From positions 618,400-682,399 of the forward strand of contig NZ_JAKFHA010000001.1 of assembly GCF_021502675.1 (NCBI RefSeq): DNA of 64,000 nt, given 5' to 3'. The notes beneath the pieces are model-generated. The model was not told the DNA's origin and ran no database searches. It saw nothing but the letters and a program-made list of their open reading frames with translations. Position 1 is the stretch's first letter. Every line of letters starts with the position of its first letter. A program made the translations under genes and the position numbers. Of the stretch, positions 46,567-56,454 are shown piece after piece. The DNA is from Yinghuangia soli. Its GTDB lineage: Bacteria > Actinomycetota > Actinomycetes > Streptomycetales > Streptomycetaceae.

Positions 46567-47625
46567 CTACATCGCGCGCAGCCGGATCTCCAGCGTGGTC
46601 CACGCGCCCACGTGGACGCGGTCGCCGTCCATCAGGTCCACCGGCGTGTTGACCTCGATGGCCTGCTTGCCGCCGTTCATCGTGGTGCCGTTCGTCGAAC
46701 CGGGGTCGACCAGCTGCCAGCTGCCGTCCGGCCGGCTCATCAGCACCACGTGCAGGTGCGAGATGCCCGGGTCGGAGGGCGGGCCGGACAGGTCGATCTC
46801 CGGTACGCCGGAACCCGATTCGCCGATCCGGCGGCGGCCGACCCGCATGCGGTCGCCCTGCAGCAGCACGCCCCACGACTCGTGGTACGGCGGGAAGCGC
46901 ATCGCGTGCGCGTCCGGGCCGCCCTGCGAGACGACCCGCTGGAAGTACTCCGCGTCGGCGGTGACCACCACGGTCCACATGTACCGCTGCTGCTGCACGG
47001 ACACCGGCTGCACCGGAGGCGGGGGCGGAGGCGGCGGCTCGATCGGCTCGTTGCCGAGCACGGTGTGGCCGCCCAGGCCGTAGTCCTCGCCGTAGGGGCG
47101 CTCGGTGTACTGCGGTTCGGCATACGACGGGTAACCCCCGTACGCCTGCTGCTGCGACGGCTGATGCTGCTGGTACGACTGCTGCGACGAGTGAGACTGC
47201 TGCGAGGGCTGCGATTGCTGGGACTGCTGCGACCGCTGGGACTGCTGCGAGTGCACCGCGGGGTCCTGCCCGTACGACTGCCCGCCGTGCGTCGTCTGCC
47301 CGCCGTGCGTGGTCTGCCCGTACGACGAGTGCTGCCCGTAGTCGCCCGGGTCACCGAGCGGCCCCGGCTGGTAGTACCCGCCGCGCGGATCGTGCGTGGG
47401 CGCATTCGCGAAGCCGCCCAGCCCGGACGCCTGGGCGCCGTCCTGGGCGTCGAAGGCGCGGCCGCACGCCTCGCAGTACCGGGCCTCCCCGTTGCGGGCC
47501 GTCCGGCACACCGGGCAGAGCTCGGGCGGAGCCGCCGGCCCGGGGGCCGCGGCTCCCATGGGCCGCCCGCACGCATCGCAGAAGTCGTCGGCGATCGAGT
47601 GGTGGCCGCGGGGGCATATCGCCAT
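46567..47625 (-). CDS. FHA protein with zinc ribbons and Gln/Ser-rich linker (352 aa)
   Basis: Last gene of the PknG operon and a candidate phosphothreonine-binding output. Two zinc-ribbon units open the protein (CPRGHHSIADDFCDACG and CPVCRTARNGEARYCEACG). A long Gln/Ser/Tyr/Gly-rich linker, probably disordered, occupies about 95-200. The FHA domain is at about 235-350: DRMRVGRRRIGE, GISHLHVVL and DPGSTNGTTMNG, with the binding Arg, Ser-His and Asn residues in place. In mycobacteria PknG phosphorylates the small FHA protein GarA; this one is larger, so functional equivalence is inference. Confidence 0.88.
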   Translation of the reverse strand: MAICPRGHHSIADDFCDACGRPMGAAAPGPAAPPELCPVCRTARNGEARYCEACGRAFDAQDGAQASGLGGFANAPTHDPRGGYYQPGPLGDPGDYGQHSSYGQTTHGGQTTHGGQSYGQDPAVHSQQSQRSQQSQQSQPSQQSHSSQQSYQQHQPSQQQAYGGYPSYAEPQYTERPYGEDYGLGGHTVLGNEPIEPPPPPPPPVQPVSVQQQRYMWTVVVTADAEYFQRVVSQGGPDAHAMRFPPYHESWGVLLQGDRMRVGRRRIGESGSGVPEIDLSGPPSDPGISHLHVVLMSRPDGSWQLVDPGSTNGTTMNGGKQAIEVNTPVDLMDGDRVHVGAWTTLEIRLRAM

Positions 47626-47706
47626 GTCAGCGCCTCCTGTCTTCCTGGACGACGACGCGCGCCGGGGCCCGGCGGTTCGAAGACGGTCCTATGTCAACCA
47701 CGCAGG

Positions 47707-49026
47707 CTACGAGGTCCGCAACCGGGACGTCTTGACCGAGTCGGTGTCGAGCGTCATCTCGTCGGCATCCGAGACCTTGCGGCGCAGCTTCAGCGTGCCG
47801 GTCACGGGGTCCTCCTCGACGACGTTCTTGATGAGTTTGGCGGTGTGGTCGTCGCCCGCCTCGTTGGCCAGCCGCAGCGCCCGGCCCAGGAGTGCGGTCG
47901 CCTCGTGCTCCTCGCCGTCGCGGCGCTTCTCCAGGCCCTCCTGGATGGCGTTGGCCATCTCGGCGCGGCCGGTGTAGAACGCCACTTCCTTGCTGATCTT
48001 GGTGGACAGGTCCTCGTTGTCCGTCCACTCCGCGAACACGCCGATCCGGGTCAGCTCGTTCTCGGTGCCGTCCGCACCGCGCGACACGAGGCTGACCAGG
48101 CCGACCCGCACCGGGTCGTACAGGTCGCCCGGCTCGACCTCCAGGCAGATGTGGTAGTCGCGGCTCTCCGCGCCCCACGAACCGGTCGGGTAGTCCCCGA
48201 TGTTCGGCCCGGCGTCGGCGCGCCGGTGGGTCAGCTCCTCGATGGTCGGGCGGACCTGCTTGACGAACTTGACCTGCGCGCTGCCCGGGGTGCGCACCCG
48301 CAGCGCGACGTCCGCCACCGCCTTGCCCATCGCGTTCTCGATCATCGCGGTGAAGTCCGCGACCAGGTTGGCCGGTTCGGCCACGATGTCCAGGCTGCCC
48401 AGGAGACCGGAGGCGACCTGGCGCAGCTCGGCGACCACCCAGTCGGTGCCCACACCGCGGCAGTCGCAGGTGAACACGCCCTGGCACGCCTCGATGGCGG
48501 CGGCCAGGTCCGCGGCGGTCTCGCTCTCGTCCTTGCCGTCGGTGAGCAGGATGGCGTGCCGGATGGCGTGCGGGTACGGGTCGAGCAGGCGCTTCGCGGC
48601 GCGCAGCCACTGGCCTATCGCGGTGCCGCCGCGCGCCCGCAGCTTGTCGACCGCGCGCTTGGCCTCGCGGCGGCTGTGCTCGTCGAGCACGACCATGCGC
48701 TCTTCGGGCGGGTAGACCATCGTGGCCATGCCGGTGCCGGACACGATCGCGAGGAGCGTGCCGTTGGGCATCGCGTCGATCGCGGCCTTGGTGGCCTGCT
48801 TGGCGGCGGCCAGTTTGGACGCCGGGAAGTCCATCGAGCCGGAGGTGTCCACCAGGATCACCTCGGCGGCCTGCCCGCTCCCGGCACCCGCGGACACGCC
48901 CGCGGCCCCGGTCGCGGTCACCGTGGCGATCGCGTGGACCTCGCGGCCGCCCATCGGCAGGTACTGGTTCTGGAAGACCTCGACGGCGAAGTCCGGCGCC
49001 CCGGACGGGCTTGCGTTGGCGGACAT
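47707..49026 (-). CDS. VWA-domain protein (439 aa)
   Basis: Von Willebrand A-type protein with the metal site Asp60-x-Ser62-x-Ser64 in VILVDTSGSMDF, a Thr region RARGGTAIGQWL and the later Asp in AILLTDGKDESE. A beta-rich domain follows (VADVALRVRTPGSAQVKFVK), then a helical part with a TPR-like segment (EEHEATALLGRALRLANEAG). The C-terminus is rich in Thr/Ser (TLDTDSVKTSRLRTS) and could be phosphorylated by the operon kinase, though this is only a suggestion. Five bases separate it from the phosphatase gene. Confidence 0.88.
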   Translation of the reverse strand: MSANASPSGAPDFAVEVFQNQYLPMGGREVHAIATVTATGAAGVSAGAGSGQAAEVILVDTSGSMDFPASKLAAAKQATKAAIDAMPNGTLLAIVSGTGMATMVYPPEERMVVLDEHSRREAKRAVDKLRARGGTAIGQWLRAAKRLLDPYPHAIRHAILLTDGKDESETAADLAAAIEACQGVFTCDCRGVGTDWVVAELRQVASGLLGSLDIVAEPANLVADFTAMIENAMGKAVADVALRVRTPGSAQVKFVKQVRPTIEELTHRRADAGPNIGDYPTGSWGAESRDYHICLEVEPGDLYDPVRVGLVSLVSRGADGTENELTRIGVFAEWTDNEDLSTKISKEVAFYTGRAEMANAIQEGLEKRRDGEEHEATALLGRALRLANEAGDDHTAKLIKNVVEEDPVTGTLKLRRKVSDADEMTLDTDSVKTSRLRTS

Positions 49027-49031
49027 TGCGG

Positions 49032-50297
49032 CTACTCCTTGGGTTCCGGCCCGGCGTGGGCGGCGGGCGGGAAGGGGACGAGGACCACGGTGATGTTGTC
49101 GGCGCCCCCGGACTGGAGCGCGTAGTCGGTGAGCGCGCGCGCCGCGCGGACCGGCTGGGCCAGGCCGTACGGCAGCGCGAACGCGGACAGGGTCTGGGCG
49201 GCCTGCACGTAGTTCCACAGGCCGTCGCTGCACAGCAGCACCGCACCGGGCGTGTTCGGGCGCAGCGTCATGACGCGCGCGCGGACCTCGCCCGCATCCG
49301 CGCCCAGCCACGACACGATCGCGTGCGCCCGGCTGTCGGCGTACGCCTGGGCCTCGGTCATCTGCCCGCAGGCCACCATGCGCGCGGCCCACGAGTCGTC
49401 CTCGGTGAGCAGCGCGGACGGGGTGGGCAGCCGCATCGTGTCGTCCGGCGCGAGGCCTTCGGGGGCGGCGGGCAGCGGGGAACCGGGCAGCGCGATGCGG
49501 ACCGGCTCGTGGTCCGGCTCGGGAGCCGGGTGCGCGGCGCCGCTGCGGGCCGGGATGGTGGTGTCCTGGTCGCCGACCGGATGGTCGTCGACGGACAGCC
49601 AGTACGCCCGGCTGTCGCCGACCCAGCCGATGGTGACCGTGTCGGGGGTGACCACCGCGGAGACGTACGTGCAGGCCGGTGCGTTGCCGTCGGCCTCGCC
49701 CGGTCCGGCAAGGCGCGCCACGGCACTTGCCGCCGCGGCCGCGGCCGCCCGGGTGGCCGCCTCGGGGCCCGCACCGCCGCGCAGCGCGGCGGCGAGCGCG
49801 GCCCCGGCGGACCGGGTGGCGGTCGCGGAGGCGTCGTCGGGCCGCGGCGAGGAGGAGACGCCGTCGCACACGACCGCGACCACGCTGGGCCCGTGCGGGC
49901 CGTCCACGATCTCGACGGCCATCGCGTCCTCGTTGCGCCGGTGCCGCAGCCCCCGGTCGCTGACCCCGGCGGCGATGCGCAGGTCGGCGACGACCGAGTC
50001 GCGCGGGTTGTAGGCGCGTCCGCACGACTCGCACCAGCCGTCCGCGCCGATCGACGCGGTCCGGCACGAACGGCACACGGCCGCGGCGAACTCACCGCGC
50101 CGCGGGGCGCGTTCGGCGACCGGCGGGGGCGGCGCGGTGCGCAGGTCGTAGCCGCACGCCTCGCAGAAGTTGTACCCGGGCTGGGGCGCGACCCCGCAGC
50201 TCGGGCAGCTGTGCACCACCGTGGTCGGCGAGCCGGACCGGGCGCCCGCGCCCGGATCCGTCTCGTGCGGTGTCGTCCGGCCTACTCCCACGCCCAT
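49032..50297 (-). CDS. PP2C-family Ser/Thr phosphatase with two zinc ribbons (421 aa)
   Basis: Metal-dependent phosphatase expected to reverse the action of the kinase encoded upstream. Two zinc ribbons open the protein (CPSCGVAPQPGYNFCEACG and CRSCRTASIGADGWCESCG). The PP2C domain starts at about residue 108: VSDRGLRHRRNEDA, VVAVVCDGVSSSP (Asp retained, the usual MGG changed to VSS), GWVGDSRAYWL, LLCSDGLWNY and GGADNITVVLV. The metal ligands are conserved, so activity is expected. Its ATG overlaps the kinase stop (TGATG). Confidence 0.9.
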   Translation of the reverse strand: MGVGVGRTTPHETDPGAGARSGSPTTVVHSCPSCGVAPQPGYNFCEACGYDLRTAPPPPVAERAPRRGEFAAAVCRSCRTASIGADGWCESCGRAYNPRDSVVADLRIAAGVSDRGLRHRRNEDAMAVEIVDGPHGPSVVAVVCDGVSSSPRPDDASATATRSAGAALAAALRGGAGPEAATRAAAAAAASAVARLAGPGEADGNAPACTYVSAVVTPDTVTIGWVGDSRAYWLSVDDHPVGDQDTTIPARSGAAHPAPEPDHEPVRIALPGSPLPAAPEGLAPDDTMRLPTPSALLTEDDSWAARMVACGQMTEAQAYADSRAHAIVSWLGADAGEVRARVMTLRPNTPGAVLLCSDGLWNYVQAAQTLSAFALPYGLAQPVRAARALTDYALQSGGADNITVVLVPFPPAAHAGPEPKE

Positions 50298-52693
50298 CAC
50301 ACCCACGTCCGGGGACGAACTTCGTTTGCCTTGTCCACCAGGGCCACCCGCTCTTCCGAACCGTCCACGTGCCGGGCCAGGGAGCGGTACGTGCGCTCCA
50401 GGGCGAACCGCAGCGGCCGCTCCTCCAGCGCGCTGTCCAGCACGGTGCCGCCCTGGCCGGTTGCTCCTGCACTGCCCGCCCGAACCCATTCCAATGCCGC
50501 GCCGAGGAGTTCGGCGGCGAGCCGGTCGTACGCCTCGCCCTCCACCGGCAGCGCGCTCAGGTGCGCGGACGCCTGCAGCAGGTCGTGCTCCAGGTGCTCG
50601 TCCGGCCGCCGGTTGCCGACCCGGGTGCGCAGCGCGGCGGTCTGCGCGGCGACGTGGTAGCTGGAGGTGTCCGGCACCGATTCGAGGGTGCCGACCGCGC
50701 CGGGGCGGTCGCCGGCCGCGAGGCGGCAGCGGCCGAGCCCGAACGCGGCGCTGACGTAGGACCGGTCGGTGTCCCACACGCCTTCGTACTCGCGGGCCGC
50801 CGCGGCGGGCTGCCCGGTCTGCTCCAGGCACACGCCGAGCGCGAGGCGCGGTGCGCGCTCGCCGGGCAGCATGGACCGCACGGTGTCGAAGGCGACCAGC
50901 GCCTCGGCGGAGCGGCCTTCGGCGAGCGCGGCCAGGCCGCGGTACCAGAGGAGCCGCCAGTCGTCCGGGTCGACGTCGTCCAGGAACGCCTCGGCGCGCA
51001 CCACCTGTCCGCGCTCTATGCACACGTACGCCAGGCGCAGCGTGGCCTCGACCGAGTCGACGTCGGCCGCGGTGAGGGCGGCGAGGAGCTCGTCGGGGTC
51101 GTTGGTGGGCAGCGATGCGAGCAGGCCGGCCGCCGGGTCGGTCGGGTCGACGCGCGGCACCGGCAGCCCGGCTGCGGTGGCCACCGCGCCCGGCGCGGCC
51201 GGCTCGTCCCAGGCCGCGACGTCGCTGTGCGCGACGCGCGTCTCGGGGCCGAACAGGCCGGACAGCGCCGGCTTGGGCTCGCGGCTGCGGGCCGCGACGA
51301 CCTCGCGCAGCACGCCCAGGCACTGCTCGGCCATGTCGGCGGCGGATGCGAAGCGCTGCTCGGGGTCGGGGTGCGTGGCCCGCAGCAGGAGCCGGTGGTA
51401 CGACTCGAACTCGCGGAACAGCGGCACCTCGTGGGCGGGCGGCAGGCTGTGCTTCCAGTCGCGCGTGAAGTTCGCGAACGGGAAGCTGAGCACCGCCATC
51501 GTCCGCCCGACGGTGAACAGGTCGGACTCGGGGCTGGGGCCCACCCGTTCGATCTCGGGGGCCTGGTAGCCGACGGTGCCGTAGATCGCGCCGTCCTCGT
51601 CGTCGAGCTCGCGGACCGCGCCCATGTCGATGAGCTTGAGCTGGTCGTCGGTCTGGATGACGTTGTCCGGCTTGAAGTCGCAGTAGACCAGGCCGCGGTT
51701 GTGCAGGTGCCCGAACGCCGGGAGGATCTCGATCGCGTAGGCCAGCACCTGCTCCAGCGGCAGCACCGCGCGGCGGTCGCCCGACTCGGTGCGGCGGCGC
51801 TCCAGGAGGTCCTTGAGCGACATGCCGCCGACGTACTCCATGACGATGTACGTCTCGGCGTCGCCGGTGTAGCGGTCCTGGTGGGTCACCACGTTGTGGA
51901 TGGTGACGATGTTGGCGTGCTGGGTGTGCGCGAGGATGCGCTGCTCGGCGACCGCCGCGGCGCGCGCGTCGATGTCACCGCTGCCCAGCAGGCCCTTGAG
52001 GACCACCCACTTGTCGTGCAGCACGGTGTCGACGGCCAGATAGACCCAGCCGAAGCCGCCGCGCGCGAGGCAGCCGACCACGCGGTACTGGCCGACCATG
52101 TCGCCCGGTTCGAGCTTGGGCGCGAACGAGTAGGGCGTGCGGTCGTACGGGCAGAAGCCGTTGGCGATGCCGGGCTTGCCGTCGCGGCCGCGGCCGACCG
52201 GACGGCCGCAGTTCTCGTCCCGGCAGAAGCGCTTCTCCTCCGGGATGACCGGGTCCTTCATCAGTATCGTCGCCGGGTCGCGCACCGGAACCGCGGGGAT
52301 CTCCACGATGCCCGCGCCGAGGCGGCGCCCGGACGAGGCCGCGCCGCGCCGCGAGGAGCGGCCCGAGGTACGCCCGGTCCCGGTCCGGCCGGACGAGGTC
52401 ACCCCCGAGCGGGCACTGCCCGAACGCCCGGGACCCGCCTGGGCGCTGGACTGCGCGCCGCCCGGTCCGTAGCCGCCGCTGAGGCCGCTGGCCAGGACCG
52501 AGCCGCCGCCCATGTGGGCCGGGCGACCCGGGTCGGACTTGCCGGCGCCGGGCTGACCGGGCAGGCCGCCCTGGCCGGGCACCTTCGGCGGGGCGCCGCC
52601 CGCGGTCTTGAGCGGCGCGCGCCCGCAGTCCAGGCAGTAGCCGTCCTCGTCGATGGTCCCGGTGCCGCAGCCGGGCCGGTTACAGGTCGCCAT
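50297..52693 (-). CDS. pknG: PknG-like Ser/Thr protein kinase with TPR domain (798 aa)
   Basis: Soluble kinase. A zinc ribbon opens the protein (Cys4, 9, 20, 23), followed by a Gly/Ser/Arg-rich linker. A rubredoxin-like unit lies just before the kinase (FCRDENCGRPVG and GFCPYDRTPYSF); its fourth ligand is Asp184 rather than Cys. The kinase domain shows ARGGFGWVYLAVD, Lys233 in WVVLKGLL, the PknG-specific catalytic loop GLVYCDFKPDN and DMGAVREL. The C-terminal 300 residues are TPR-like helices. In mycobacteria PknG acts with GlnH and GlnX in amino-acid sensing. Overlaps the preceding gene by 14 bases. Confidence 0.93.
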   Translation of the reverse strand: MATCNRPGCGTGTIDEDGYCLDCGRAPLKTAGGAPPKVPGQGGLPGQPGAGKSDPGRPAHMGGGSVLASGLSGGYGPGGAQSSAQAGPGRSGSARSGVTSSGRTGTGRTSGRSSRRGAASSGRRLGAGIVEIPAVPVRDPATILMKDPVIPEEKRFCRDENCGRPVGRGRDGKPGIANGFCPYDRTPYSFAPKLEPGDMVGQYRVVGCLARGGFGWVYLAVDTVLHDKWVVLKGLLGSGDIDARAAAVAEQRILAHTQHANIVTIHNVVTHQDRYTGDAETYIVMEYVGGMSLKDLLERRRTESGDRRAVLPLEQVLAYAIEILPAFGHLHNRGLVYCDFKPDNVIQTDDQLKLIDMGAVRELDDEDGAIYGTVGYQAPEIERVGPSPESDLFTVGRTMAVLSFPFANFTRDWKHSLPPAHEVPLFREFESYHRLLLRATHPDPEQRFASAADMAEQCLGVLREVVAARSREPKPALSGLFGPETRVAHSDVAAWDEPAAPGAVATAAGLPVPRVDPTDPAAGLLASLPTNDPDELLAALTAADVDSVEATLRLAYVCIERGQVVRAEAFLDDVDPDDWRLLWYRGLAALAEGRSAEALVAFDTVRSMLPGERAPRLALGVCLEQTGQPAAAAREYEGVWDTDRSYVSAAFGLGRCRLAAGDRPGAVGTLESVPDTSSYHVAAQTAALRTRVGNRRPDEHLEHDLLQASAHLSALPVEGEAYDRLAAELLGAALEWVRAGSAGATGQGGTVLDSALEERPLRFALERTYRSLARHVDGSEERVALVDKANEVRPRTWV

Positions 52694-54020
52694 GGTCCCC
52701 GCCTTCCCCCTTCGGCCCCTCGGCCCCGTCGTGATGGATCATGCCCCGGTCGCCCGGGCCGACTGCCCGGTGGTGCGCCGGTCTTGGTGCGGTCACTGCC
52801 TGCTGGTACTCGCCCACCACGCGGGAGGCGGCGTCCAGGTCGCAGGGTGCGCGCCACAGTACGTCGTACGCACGGTGGTGCAGCTTCTCCAAAGCCTCGT
52901 CCTCGCCCCTTCCGCGGCCGCCCGCCATCGCACGGTACGCCTGCAGCAGACCGCGCAGTTCATCGCGTCGGCCCAGCAGCGCGTCCAGCTCCGCGCGCGC
53001 CGCCCGCAGGCGGTGCACGGCCGAGTCCGTGTCCCTCTCCAACGCTCCGAGGTGGGCGGAAAGTTGCGGCCAGGCGTCACGTCTGCGCAGTTCGGACAAC
53101 TGCCCGATGCGGGACCGGAGCGGCCCGGCGAGCGGCGGGATGTCCGGAACGCCGTGCACGATGCGGGTCAGCACGTGGGCGCGCTTGCGCTGGGCCTCGG
53201 CCTCGTCGGCGGAGAGCACGTCGACCAGGCCGGCCACCCGCTGCGCGCGCTCCTCGTAGCGCTCCTGGAGCAGCCGCAGCTGCCGCAGCCCGTCGTGCAC
53301 GCTGCCCAGGTCGCGGTCCAGCGCCGCCAGGTCGACCGAGCCGATCCGGGCCGGCGCCGGTCCGCTGCCCGCGAACCGCAGCGGGTCCGCGGCGACTTGG
53401 GCCCGTGCGTCGGCCAGCCGGCTGCGGACCTCGGCGACCACGCGGGCCTCCACGCCGAGGGCGTCCGCGCCGCCGAGCCGGTCGACCAGCGCGGCGGTGT
53501 CCGCGGCGGCCGCCTCGACGCGGTCCAGGCGCGGCAGCACCGCGGTCCATACGTCGTCGACGGCGGCGACCAGCTCGGTGGCCCGGTGCCACACCTTGTT
53601 CATCTCGGCGACCAGCGTGTCCGGGGTAACCCGGCGCACGGAGGCCACCGGATCGAGCAGGCTGCGCTTGCCGATCGGCACCTCCTCGCCCGGCATCTCG
53701 ACCGAGAGGCCGGTGAGCAGTTCGGCGATCTCGTCGAGTTCGGTGCGGGTCGGGCGGGACCGGCGGCCGCGCAGGGCGCGGGCGGCGTCCAGGACCACCC
53801 CGTACGCCGCGTACAGCTCCCACAGACGGGCGATGTCGGTGCGGCAGGCCGCCCAGCGCTCCTGGGTGCGGCCCTGCAGTGCGGCGCCTTCGAGGAGGCG
53901 CCGGCCGGGGTGCTCCTCCAGCGCCATGAGTCCGGCGGAGATGCCGTCCCGGGCGGTCTCGTGCCGGGCGATGGCACGGTCCGCGTCCTCGCGCGTCCAG
54001 GGCGCGCCGGGGAGGGTCAT
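52680..54020 (-). CDS. helical protein of unknown function in PknG operon (446 aa)
   Basis: Not assigned to a family. It is almost wholly helical and charged, with heptad-like stretches (RLDRVEAAAADTAALVDRLG, GLRQLRLLQERYEERAQRVA, HRLRAARAELDALLGRRDEL) that suggest a long coiled coil. No signal peptide and no membrane helix. A more structured part with the TPDTLVAEMNKVWHRATELV segment lies near residue 155. The ATG overlaps the GlnH stop (ATGA), and its end overlaps the kinase start. It lies between sensor and kinase genes, so a scaffold or adaptor role linking them is plausible but unproven. It is not part of the mycobacterial three-gene set. Confidence 0.78.
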   Translation of the reverse strand: MTLPGAPWTREDADRAIARHETARDGISAGLMALEEHPGRRLLEGAALQGRTQERWAACRTDIARLWELYAAYGVVLDAARALRGRRSRPTRTELDEIAELLTGLSVEMPGEEVPIGKRSLLDPVASVRRVTPDTLVAEMNKVWHRATELVAAVDDVWTAVLPRLDRVEAAAADTAALVDRLGGADALGVEARVVAEVRSRLADARAQVAADPLRFAGSGPAPARIGSVDLAALDRDLGSVHDGLRQLRLLQERYEERAQRVAGLVDVLSADEAEAQRKRAHVLTRIVHGVPDIPPLAGPLRSRIGQLSELRRRDAWPQLSAHLGALERDTDSAVHRLRAARAELDALLGRRDELRGLLQAYRAMAGGRGRGEDEALEKLHHRAYDVLWRAPCDLDAASRVVGEYQQAVTAPRPAHHRAVGPGDRGMIHHDGAEGPKGEGGDHGDL

Positions 54021-55126
54021 GACGCGTCCCGCCATGCGGTCACCGCGGGCGGCTGCGCGTCGCCGGTGCCGAGCGCGGTGCCGATGTGCGTGTCGTAGAG
54101 CTTGCGCCAGGTGCCGTCGCGGCGGGTCTCGGCGAGCACCGCGTTGACGAACCGCACGAACTCGGGGTGCTCCTTGCTGATGGCCATGCCGTACGGCTCG
54201 CGGCTGATCCGCTCGCCCACCACTGCGGTGAACTTGGGGTCCTGGGCCTGGAGTCCGGCCAGGATGGTGTCGTCGGTGCTGATGGCGTCCGTTTCGCCTT
54301 TCTGCAGTTTGACCAGGCAGTCGGCCCAGGTCTCGCCCTCGACCGGCTTGGCGTTGTACTTGGGGTCCTTGATGCGGCCCAGCGACGTGGAGCCGTTGAC
54401 CGCGCACACCCGGAAGCCGGCCAGTCCGGGGAGCCCCTGCTTGGCCTGCTCGGGCAGGTCGGGGTCGAGCTGCACGAGAGCGCGCTGCCCGGCCAGGAAG
54501 TAGATGTCGGAGAAGTCGACGCGGGCGCGCCGGTCGCAGTTGACGGTCATCGTCATCGCGACGATGTCCACCTCGCCGCGCTCGACGGCGGGCACCCGGT
54601 CGGCGTTCCTGAGCACCCGGAACCGGATGCGCTCGTCGCCGGAGTCGGGCCCGAACACCGCTTTGGCGACGCGGCGCAGCAGGTCGATGTCGAAGCCCTT
54701 GAGGGAGTTCGAGACCGGGTCGAGGTAGCCGAACGGGTACGAACTCTGGTCCACGCCCACGATGATGTGGCCGCGCTGCACGATGGCCTCCATCCAGCTG
54801 GCCTTCGGCCAGGAGTCCTTCGTGGGCACGGCGGACGGGGGCTTCAGGCTGAGTTCGGCGTTTCCGCAGGTGTCGGCGGCGGGGCGGGCGGGGTCGACGG
54901 CAGCGGGTGCCGGGGCCTGCCGACCGGCTGCCGGTACGCCTGCTTGAGCGGCGGCCGAGGCCCCGGGTGCCCCGGCCGGGCGTCCCGTACCCCCGTCGCT
55001 GCCGCTTCCGCTGCAGCCGACGGCCGCCAGCAGCGCCCCGGCGACGACCGCGGCGAGCGGGACGCGCGCGGCGCGGGCAGCACGGCTCCTGCGGCCGCGG
55101 CGGGTTCGGGTCCGCGGGGGGTTCAC
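54017..55126 (-). CDS. glnH: GlnH-like solute-binding lipoprotein (369 aa)
   Basis: Amino-acid-type (family 3) binding protein. GTG 55126 starts an Arg-rich signal with lipobox LLAAVGC (Cys38). An Ala/Pro/Gly linker precedes the binding domain: GHIIVGVDQSSYPFGYLD, GFDIDLLRRVAKAVFG, DIVAMTMTVNCDRRARVDFS and CAVNGSTSLGRI. No permease or ATPase gene is present. By analogy with mycobacterial GlnH it would bind an amino acid outside the cell and report through GlnX to PknG. Overlaps the GlnX-like gene by four bases (GTGA). Confidence 0.9.
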   Translation of the reverse strand: MNPPRTRTRRGRRSRAARAARVPLAAVVAGALLAAVGCSGSGSDGGTGRPAGAPGASAAAQAGVPAAGRQAPAPAAVDPARPAADTCGNAELSLKPPSAVPTKDSWPKASWMEAIVQRGHIIVGVDQSSYPFGYLDPVSNSLKGFDIDLLRRVAKAVFGPDSGDERIRFRVLRNADRVPAVERGEVDIVAMTMTVNCDRRARVDFSDIYFLAGQRALVQLDPDLPEQAKQGLPGLAGFRVCAVNGSTSLGRIKDPKYNAKPVEGETWADCLVKLQKGETDAISTDDTILAGLQAQDPKFTAVVGERISREPYGMAISKEHPEFVRFVNAVLAETRRDGTWRKLYDTHIGTALGTGDAQPPAVTAWRDAS

Positions 55127-56454
55127 CGGTACTCCCCCAGCCTGCGGCGTATGCCGTCCACCACGCCCGCGGCGGCGACGATGGCCAGCACCAGGACGCC
55201 GATGCCCAGCCCGTCCATCGCGGCGCGGCCCTCCCGGACCGCCTTGTCGAAGTCGGACTGGTCCTTCGCGATAGCCAGCTTGAGCGCGTTCTCGGCGCGG
55301 TTGTAGGCGAGTTGCGAGGAGCCCTTGTCGTCGATGACGACCGCGACCGCGCTCTTGAAGTCGGTCTGCTCGTAAAGCGCCATGACGGTCCCGTGCGCGA
55401 TACGCCAGTCGCCGACCGCGGCGCGTGCCTCGGCGAGCTGCGCCTGCGTGGCCGGGTCGTTGCGCGCGTCGTGCGCCGCGGCAGCGAGCTGCCCGCCCGC
55501 GCCGTCGGCGGTCGCCAGCTCGTTGAACTCGGCGTTCAGGCGGGCCTCGTACTGGCCGCCGTCGCTGCCGTGCTGCACCAGGATCTGGCTCTCCGCGGCC
55601 CGCGCCTGCAGGACCGAGAACCGGGCCGCGGACAACGAGTCCACGGGCTGCCAGCCCTGGTCGCGGCTGCGGTCCAGGTCGTCGCGGGCGGACGCCAGAC
55701 TCGTACTCACCCACACCAGCGACGCCGCCACCGCGGCCGAGGCCAGCAGCAGCCCCGGGTTGAACACCCTCTTGGTCCGCCGCGCCAGCAGCACTTGGGC
55801 CACCCCGAGCGCCGCAAGCGCGCACAACCCGGCGACCACCGCAGTGCCGGGCACCGCCGTCGCCTGCCGGTGGTCGGCGCGCAGCTTCGCGGCCGCGAGC
55901 CCGTGCAGATCGGCCGCGTCCTTGAGGATCACCTGCTCCATCTGCCGCGAGGCCGCCCTCAAGTACGACGCACCCAGCGGAAACCCTTGCCGCGAGGCCG
56001 ACTTCGCCCGCGAGACGTCCTCCCGGTACAACGGGATCTGCACCGAGAGTTGCGTGATGAGCTCGGCCATGCGCCCGGTCGCCCCCGCCGACGACGCGGC
56101 GGTCAGCAGCCGCTGCGCGTCGTCCAGCGACTGCTCGTAGCGGTCCCGCAGGCTGTCCTTCTCCACGCCGCCCGACAGCAGCCCCGCCGCGGCCGCGGCG
56201 TCGGCCTCGGCCAGCGCCCGGTACAGCTCCTGGGTCCGCGCCCCCAGCGGCTCGCTCCGCTCCGCGACCCGCTCGGCGGCCTGCGACCGCTCGCGTACCG
56301 CCAGAAACGCGAAGACCCCCGACAGCAGCGCCAGCACCACGAGAACGACACCCGCGACCACCAGCCGCCCTGGTGTGGTCCGCGTCCCCCGCACGACCCG
56401 CCCGAGCACTTGGCGCCCGCTTGCGACGCCCGGCCGGGCCACCGCTGTGACCAC
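55123..56454 (-). CDS. glnX: GlnX-like four-helix transducer membrane protein (443 aa)
   Basis: First gene of the PknG operon. GTG 56454 has GGGGGAGG upstream. Membrane helices are at about 31-53, 201-223, 231-253 and 415-433. Two exterior helical domains lie between helices 1-2 and 3-4, like sensory four-helix bundles (ALAEADAAAAAGLLSGG in the first, QARAAESQILVQHGSDGG in the second). The C-terminus RRRLGEYR is cytoplasmic. In mycobacteria GlnX links ligand-bound GlnH to the cytoplasmic kinase PknG. The frame continues upstream to a TTG at 56559, but the ribosome binding site favours 56454. Confidence 0.85.
   Translation of the reverse strand: MVTAVARPGVASGRQVLGRVVRGTRTTPGRLVVAGVVLVVLALLSGVFAFLAVRERSQAAERVAERSEPLGARTQELYRALAEADAAAAAGLLSGGVEKDSLRDRYEQSLDDAQRLLTAASSAGATGRMAELITQLSVQIPLYREDVSRAKSASRQGFPLGASYLRAASRQMEQVILKDAADLHGLAAAKLRADHRQATAVPGTAVVAGLCALAALGVAQVLLARRTKRVFNPGLLLASAAVAASLVWVSTSLASARDDLDRSRDQGWQPVDSLSAARFSVLQARAAESQILVQHGSDGGQYEARLNAEFNELATADGAGGQLAAAAHDARNDPATQAQLAEARAAVGDWRIAHGTVMALYEQTDFKSAVAVVIDDKGSSQLAYNRAENALKLAIAKDQSDFDKAVREGRAAMDGLGIGVLVLAIVAAAGVVDGIRRRLGEYR

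Follow-up and report, generated by a model that had tools for sequence, protein, structure and literature searches.

PknG is known mainly from the three-gene operon that it forms with GlnX and GlnH in mycobacteria and corynebacteria, and from its substrate GarA, so a locus in which four further genes accompany this kinase raises the question of what they contribute. Such a locus lies in a window of 64,000 nucleotides from Yinghuangia soli (contig NZ_JAKFHA010000001.1, positions 618,400 to 682,399 of the forward strand; coordinates below are those of the window). Seven minus-strand genes at 46567-56454 encode GlnX, GlnH, an all-helical protein (HEL), PknG, a PP2C phosphatase, a VWA protein and a zinc-ribbon FHA protein. 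An earlier note on this DNA had described the same order with overlaps of 1 to 14 bases among the first five genes, and both are present: GlnX and GlnH overlap by 4 bases, GlnH and HEL by 4, HEL and PknG by 14, and PknG and PP2C by 1 (from the ATG start), followed by gaps of 5 bases between PP2C and VWA and 81 bases between VWA and FHA. By analogy with known switches we predict a self-contained nutrient-signalling operon, in which GlnH-GlnX-PknG would phosphorylate the tail of the VWA protein, the FHA partner would bind it and PP2C would reverse the step; we give this prediction an even chance of being right. The features are as follows.

55123..56454, minus strand: GlnX-like membrane signal transducer, 443 amino acids, GTG start chosen by ribosome-site context
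54017..55126, minus strand: GlnH-like solute-binding lipoprotein, 369 amino acids, SBP_bac_3 match of 90 bits (E 1.4e-25), lipobox-like LAAVGC
52680..54020, minus strand: HEL, all-helical soluble protein, 446 amino acids, upstream ATG at 54035 possible
50297..52693, minus strand: PknG kinase, 798 amino acids, with N-terminal zinc ribbon, rubredoxin-like domain, kinase domain and TPR
49032..50297, minus strand: PP2C phosphatase with N-terminal double zinc ribbon, ATG start at 50297, GTG at 50219 as alternative start
47707..49026, minus strand: VWA protein, 439 amino acids, ArnB-like three-part fold and conserved C-terminal Ser/Thr tail
47710..47751, minus strand: residues 426-439 of the VWA protein, C-terminal tail and candidate phospho-switch, LDTDSVKTSRLRTS
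46567..47625, minus strand: ArnA-like protein, 352 amino acids, with double zinc ribbon, Q-rich linker and FHA domain

The family assignments of the earlier note were upheld by Pfam or NCBIfam matches above cut-off for six of the seven proteins, HEL being the exception, without a hit in either database up to E 0.1. GlnX scored 366 bits with NCBIfam NF058618 (cut-off 250) and fell short of the mycobacterial-type equivalog NF041460 (173 bits versus a cut-off of 780). PknG, the sole PknG_TPR match in its genome, exceeded the Pfam cut-offs for PknG_TPR (PF16918, 270.9 bits), PknG_rubred (PF16919, 88.6) and Pkinase (PF00069, 99.8), aligned to M. tuberculosis PknG (2pzi) with 503 bits, and has catalytic residues K233, D339 and D356 that were invariant in 10 aligned rows. 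The phosphatase matched PP2C_2 above the Pfam cut-off (E 1.6e-14), its metal-binding residues being kept in 114/115 (D98) and 113/115 (each of D119, D332 and D374) family members. The VWA protein matched VWA_3 above cut-off and VWA_3_C (PF18571) with E 3.8e-16, and its metal-site residues D60, S62, S64, T135 and D163 were conserved in 106/106. The FHA domain was likewise found above cut-off (E 3.7e-10), with pocket residues R264, S289, H292 and N312 each kept in 101 of 106 proteins. The zinc ribbons of PP2C and the FHA protein stayed below the 27.3-bit cut-off of DZR (24.6 and 21.3 bits, respectively), the cysteine pairs nonetheless being visible.

The adjacency of GlnX, GlnH and a PknG with rubredoxin and TPR domains, and the location of GarA elsewhere in the genome, are shared with the GlnX-GlnH-PknG operon and GarA/OdhI pathway of Mycobacterium and Corynebacterium (PMC6069109, PMC9769921, PMC8546545), the three-gene arrangement having been stated, from STRING, to be conserved in Actinobacteria (PMC6069109). 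The four further genes HEL, PP2C, VWA and zinc-ribbon FHA set the present operon apart. The earlier note's proposal was open to the objection that PP2C, VWA and FHA genes might accompany pknG only sporadically, and we therefore compared PknG gene neighbourhoods. A PknG_TPR search found 47 genomes over the cut-off among 396 of the phylum and 149 among 393 of the class, the two samples overlapping. A first set of 80 PknG loci, each at most 19.5 kb long and together a subset of our own selection, was annotated with profiles grown from the window proteins; a second set comprised the best 80 of 586 confirmed candidates and is hence biased toward close relatives. In 105 of the 160 loci, PknG was accompanied by three or more of the four extra families. 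All seven families were present in 42/80 loci of the first set, where the seven genes appear as one conserved unit: 20/20 in the window's own family (f1), 9/20 in f92, 7/11 in f93, 4/4 in f7, 1/1 each in f88 and f43, 0/1 in f108, 0/2 in f10 and 0/20 in the mycobacterial-type f3, with f3 and f10 loci holding just GlnX, GlnH and PknG, or PknG alone. The sporadic pattern did not occur in the second set either, 57/80 loci of which held at least three extra families (the script counted 58, and we discounted L173, whose FHA match falls on its PP2C). These were 44/49 Streptomycetaceae, 6/6 Thermomonosporaceae, 3/3 Streptosporangiaceae (one of them, L176, doubtfully labelled), 2/2 Micromonosporaceae and 2/20 Pseudonocardiaceae; the five streptomycete exceptions (L136, L141, L147, L173, L208) end 0.2-1.5 kb beyond PknG. 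Two gene orders recurred, GlnX-GlnH-HEL-PknG-PP2C-VWA-FHA and, in Actinomadura and f92, HEL-PknG-PP2C-VWA-FHA-GlnX-GlnH. The arrangement is thus far beyond chance and recurs in many genera, and the retention of the same content despite rearranged order argues for a functional unit.

An indication of what this unit may do came from the fold of the VWA protein. It is an orthologue of PDB entry 4fx5 (428 bits), titled Catenulispora acidiphila; genome G730 encodes the 4fx5 stretch at 100% identity, and there the full seven-gene cluster, in the window's order, surrounds the 4FX5 gene. A model of the window protein (predicted local distance difference test, pLDDT, 90; predicted template-modelling score 0.86) aligned to 4fx5 with Z 53.5 and to archaeal ArnB, from the ArnAB complex (8s05_B), with Z 31.3 and a root-mean-square deviation of 3.3 A over 367 of 380 residues, at a sequence identity of about 14%. 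The ArnB paralogue VWA2 gave Z 27.8, and the next non-Arn whole-length match, ITIH1, gave Z 24.9 over 329 residues at 5.8 A; in Foldseek, ArnB reached E 1e-21 versus 8e-14 for the next non-Arn whole-length match. The three-part fold of ArnB (vWA, beta-sandwich and helical C-terminal domain) is found in the VWA model, and the operon FHA protein repeats the domain order of ArnA, a zinc ribbon, a flexible linker and an FHA domain with a phosphothreonine pocket. The family profiles matched both 8s05 partners (E 5.1e-9 on the VWA side, 1.6e-5 on the FHA side), the FHA-family profile picking up ArnA chains 5a8i and 8s05_C. Because other VWA and FHA chains score equally well or better in this profile search, it is the fold comparison that carries weight. 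On the evidence of the model, the VWA protein is an actinobacterial structural counterpart of archaeal ArnB. The earlier note had left the VWA protein without a role; the family is present as it said, but is not without precedent.

In Sulfolobus, ArnA, ArnB, the kinase ArnC and PP2A form a nutrient switch (PMC6509490, PMC7472852, PMC10470591, PMC12852372; PDB 8s05). Besides the fold and the partner with zinc ribbon, Q-rich linker and FHA domain (the archaeal ArnA linker also has QQ motifs), the two systems share a kinase with a phosphatase, a nutrient signal and a conserved C-terminal Thr. The present system differs in being bacterial, in uniting all its parts and a membrane sensor in a single operon, in its PP2C-type instead of PP2A-type phosphatase, and in its low sequence identity. 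The likeness of 4FX5 to VWA2 was already noted in PMC6509490 and is repeated in PMC12852372, where the architecture is said to be mostly uninvolved in multi-phosphorylation-dependent processes. An ArnB-like gene in one operon with a gene of ArnA order, a kinase and a phosphatase speaks against that statement for actinobacteria.

Such phosphorylation has its candidate site in the C-terminal tail of the VWA protein. Among 106 VWA proteins, T433 was kept in 105 (one gap), S430 in 104 and T428 in 94; the tail reads LDTDSVKT in the window and LETRSTKT in many relatives. With the L176 row dropped (n=105), the motif [ILVMN][DE]T.S was found within the last 40 residues of 93 proteins versus 1.0 expected in shuffled tails, and S[TVSQ][KRL]T in the tails of 99 versus 2.3 expected, numbers to be read in the light of motifs picked after viewing the tails and of related sequences that are not independent. 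The six other operon families showed 0 or 1 match to these motifs. For comparison, ArnC phosphorylates the first Thr of SIETT in ArnB (PMC12852372).

Taken by orthology with the mycobacterial and corynebacterial pathway, GlnH would sense an extracellular amino acid and GlnX would relay the signal across the membrane to the TPR region of PknG, which would then phosphorylate the VWA tail at T428 and/or T433. If the switch works as in Sulfolobus, the zinc ribbon of the FHA protein would dock loosely on the unphosphorylated VWA protein, the FHA domain would hold the phosphothreonine tail tightly after phosphorylation, and PP2C would strip the phosphate and reset the switch. GarA, whose gene lies elsewhere, probably provides a second output, to the tricarboxylic acid cycle, and HEL may be a dedicated helical scaffold. 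Underneath this circuit lie the conserved gene content, the rearranged order, the intact catalytic and ligand residues, the ArnB-like fold, the ArnA-like domain order and the conserved tail, all of which are established.

A possible, though in our judgement doubtful, alternative is the ordinary GlnH-GlnX-PknG-GarA pathway, with PP2C acting on GarA and PknG, and with VWA and FHA as assembly or localisation factors of the kinase rather than its output. GarA itself bears on this. In all 54 genomes searched, the window's own included, a GarA orthologue of at least 149 bits lies outside the cluster, other FHA matches reaching at most 54 bits among the matches listed, save two further strong copies in G093; in the window's genome it lies on another contig (L032:997-1752, contig 34; also L214). 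The operon FHA protein therefore comes on top of GarA, and any idea that it takes the latter's place falls. In the Thr pair of GarA/OdhI, PknG acts on the first residue and PknB on the second (PMC2784874). Of the 54 copies, 52 were readable with the pattern used; all 52 keep the second Thr (the PknB site in M. tuberculosis), and the first is kept in 18/18 readable own-family copies besides the window's, as the GarA pathway would have it. A phosphatase acting on OdhI also has a precedent in Ppp of C. glutamicum (PMC2784874). The window's own GarA, in contrast, departs from the mycobacterial and corynebacterial form, reading EQTSTI instead of ETTSVF, so that the PknG-site Thr (first T of ETTS) is replaced by Gln; each of the 8 f93 copies likewise has Gln, and the 4 f7 copies have Ser or Ala. 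The conservation of the VWA tail is likewise left unexplained by an output through GarA. We do not claim a relocation of the substrate from GarA to the VWA protein, because loss of the PknG-site Thr correlates uncleanly with the cluster: two f10 genomes have Arg or Lys at this position, and the 18 own-family copies keep the Thr.

Zinc ribbons add a further layer to the predicted circuit. Besides its rubredoxin, PknG carries an N-terminal ribbon in 99/107 cluster loci, the window included, versus 2/41 loci lacking all of the extra genes. Scored against an adjacent VWA gene, 114 loci had both, 39 had neither, 5 had the VWA only and 5 the ribbon only. For this table 14 loci (contig ends, decayed or duplicates) were set aside beforehand, and 15 rows without a kinase anchor, the window's among them, were unscorable; L106 was entered by hand as VWA-bearing, since L306 shows a VWA further downstream, and L312 and L272 were scored as ribbon-less, though a ribbon is visible by eye in their sequences. 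Within G669, an f3 genome with four PknGs, the cluster PknG has ribbons and the three others do not. GarA has an N-terminal zinc ribbon in 45/45 readable copies outside f3 and f10 and in 0/7 from these two families. The f3 copies that we read lacked the ribbon in both PknG and GarA, unlike the window, where both have it. Because the ribbon of ArnA docks on ArnB (PMC12852372), the analogy suggests the VWA protein as a docking site for these ribbons. Extended to its full length, the idea is that the PknG operon of many actinobacteria includes a bacterial ArnA-ArnB switch, that the VWA protein is a hub on which PknG, PP2C, GarA and the FHA protein dock through their ribbons, that its phospho-tail was the original output of the kinase, and that mycobacteria and most Pseudonocardiaceae lost the hub along with the PknG and GarA ribbons, leaving GarA as sole target; we put this forward tentatively, as a conjecture with the balance against it.

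The distribution of the genes is informative about their history. A VWA profile match was found in 1/15 f3 genomes (G669), 1/2 f10 genomes (G375, where it adjoins a second PknG) and 9/9 others, so that in most f3 genomes searched, where it is missing genome-wide in 14/15, the VWA gene was lost rather than moved. Within the window's order, a VWA relative at E 1e-30 or better is present in 113/119 genomes. Four of the six VWA-less genomes (G590, G622, G796, G729) also lack a PknG_TPR match, which favours the predicted circuit, and the two that have one are G789 and G774, the contig of the latter stopping just after PknG. Of ten VWA-bearing genomes checked, nine have PknG (G295 as a remnant only) and G772 does not. 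In a PknG tree of 94 rows, the label cluster or no cluster requires 4 changes; the cluster is also present in f43, which belongs to another class of the phylum. In G669, L304 is a PknG in a full seven-gene cluster and L128-L130 are not. Within the Pseudonocardiaceae, Kibdelosporangium banguiense has all seven genes, Lentzea has only PP2C of the extra four, and Amycolatopsis, Prauserella and others have none of them. The arrangement in Lentzea (L204, L211), GlnX-GlnH-PknG-PP2C without HEL, VWA and FHA, is an intermediate between the seven-gene and three-gene forms. The simplest reading would be an old seven-gene cluster that was reduced in mycobacterial-type and most pseudonocardial lineages. 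In one decaying cluster (L310, G295) the VWA gene is split over two frames, GlnX and GlnH are partial and PknG is nearly gone.

Several observations weigh against the predicted circuit. Its components are separable, as the PP2C-only locus of Lentzea indicates: L318:5995-12222 (G772) has HEL-PP2C-VWA-FHA in line without PknG, GlnX or GlnH, L316 (G789) lacks VWA alone, and in L306 the VWA and FHA genes lie about 9.5 kb beyond PP2C. No PknG_TPR match was found in the G772 genome, and the remaining block of L318 may work with another kinase. Among nine second-copy PknG loci fetched by PknG match alone (L269-L277), four (L269-L271, L277) have no VWA; the other five (L272-L276), in favour of the circuit, adjoin a VWA paralogue. 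T428, the tail position most like the PknG site of GarA, is Val in 4FX5, for which reason T433 and S430 are the safer candidate phosphosites. The early ArnB phosphosites sit in an elongated helix pair (PMC12852372); the window VWA, unlike ArnB, has a short C-terminal tail, its model showing only short helices after residue 390 and no long C-terminal helix pair. Finally, the link between ribbon and VWA depends on few evolutionary events, independent pairs giving 3.9 in the same direction and 0 in the opposite one (p 0.125; p 0.5 on an earlier tree).

PknG paralogues also adjoin a VWA paralogue without PP2C or FHA in L272-L276, L305, L312-L315 and L319, those beyond L272-L276 having been fetched via a VWA match or as repeats. 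These could possibly represent a minimal kinase-VWA pair.

The separability of the genes is also relevant to a second alternative, which we consider improbable, namely that the locus is a kinase-PP2C-vWA triad of the GAP1-N2 type, a general module for stress or conflict with GlnX-GlnH as a captured sensor. Such a triad, with a neighbouring and often zinc-ribbon kinase, a PP2C and a standalone vWA, has been described for actinobacterial GAP1-N2 systems (PMC7159879); the GlnX-GlnH pair is found at either end of the block, as a captured sensor might be, and L318 shows the block surviving without sensor and kinase. The kinase of the present locus, however, is a genuine PknG, complete with rubredoxin and TPR domains, and the accessible part of the triad description names no FHA partner, HEL or GlnX/GlnH and does not describe the kinase as PknG. 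Furthermore, none of the cluster genes looked like a defence-type effector, and assignment as a defence system was rejected, as the best 25 of 33 PADLOC matches were all to kinase-domain models. That the genes merely stay neighbours, co-transcribed for historical reasons without a shared circuit, is very improbable, since the content is retained through the rearrangement of order, HEL was found only beside PknG or at the cluster, and PknG and VWA paralogues pair again elsewhere, even though L318 and L316 do show separate loss of parts.

HEL itself gave a confident model (pLDDT 90) with no Foldseek match at E 0.001 or better and no convincing structural relative; kinship with EzrA was rejected, the best Z of 10.8 over 166 residues being in the range of unrelated helical proteins. 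A full-length HEL match occurred once per genome, at the cluster, in 6/11 genomes searched, and was found in none of the other 5. Weak HEL-like matches (40-71 bits) also precede the PknG paralogues in L312, L314 and L319.

Each of the parts described here was known before; what is new is that one operon unites them, together with the link to ArnAB. By titles and abstracts we found no publication joining PknG with VWA or ArnAB, most subscription journals lying outside this search, and a 2005 survey that mentions PknG, von Willebrand and operon draws, in its accessible part, no link between them. Among the papers listed, the single one naming ArnA, ArnB and PknG together deals with lipopolysaccharide modification. 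Our data suggest that Streptomyces and other actinobacteria keep a seven-gene cluster of which the three-gene operon of mycobacteria is a pared-down version. With this cluster, PknG gains a candidate phosphatase and a candidate new substrate whose sites can be named, and it is linked to an archaeal nutrient switch of solved structure; each step is testable in Streptomyces. The cluster also gives a genomic context to structure 4FX5, whose structural kinship the ArnAB authors noted, the gene neighbourhood being undiscussed in the accessible parts of their papers.

Some observations concern the surroundings and the labels of individual loci. The upstream neighbour of the operon is a lipoprotein-like gene without family match and the downstream neighbour a GH20 hexosaminidase; a scan of the locus for promoters and terminators gave no signal above chance. 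Short direct repeats at window positions 47149-47281 encode the Gln/Ser-rich linker of the FHA protein. L176 is titled Microtetraspora glauca, yet its PknG groups inside Streptomyces. A single frame spans its VWA and FHA genes; we rejected a genuine fusion, as the VWA tail is lost in low-complexity sequence and a draft-assembly or frame artefact is likelier. L194, from a metagenome-assembled genome titled Amycolatopsis, has a cluster in the Actinomadura order, and its PknG groups apart from other Amycolatopsis, so that this label is doubtful as well.

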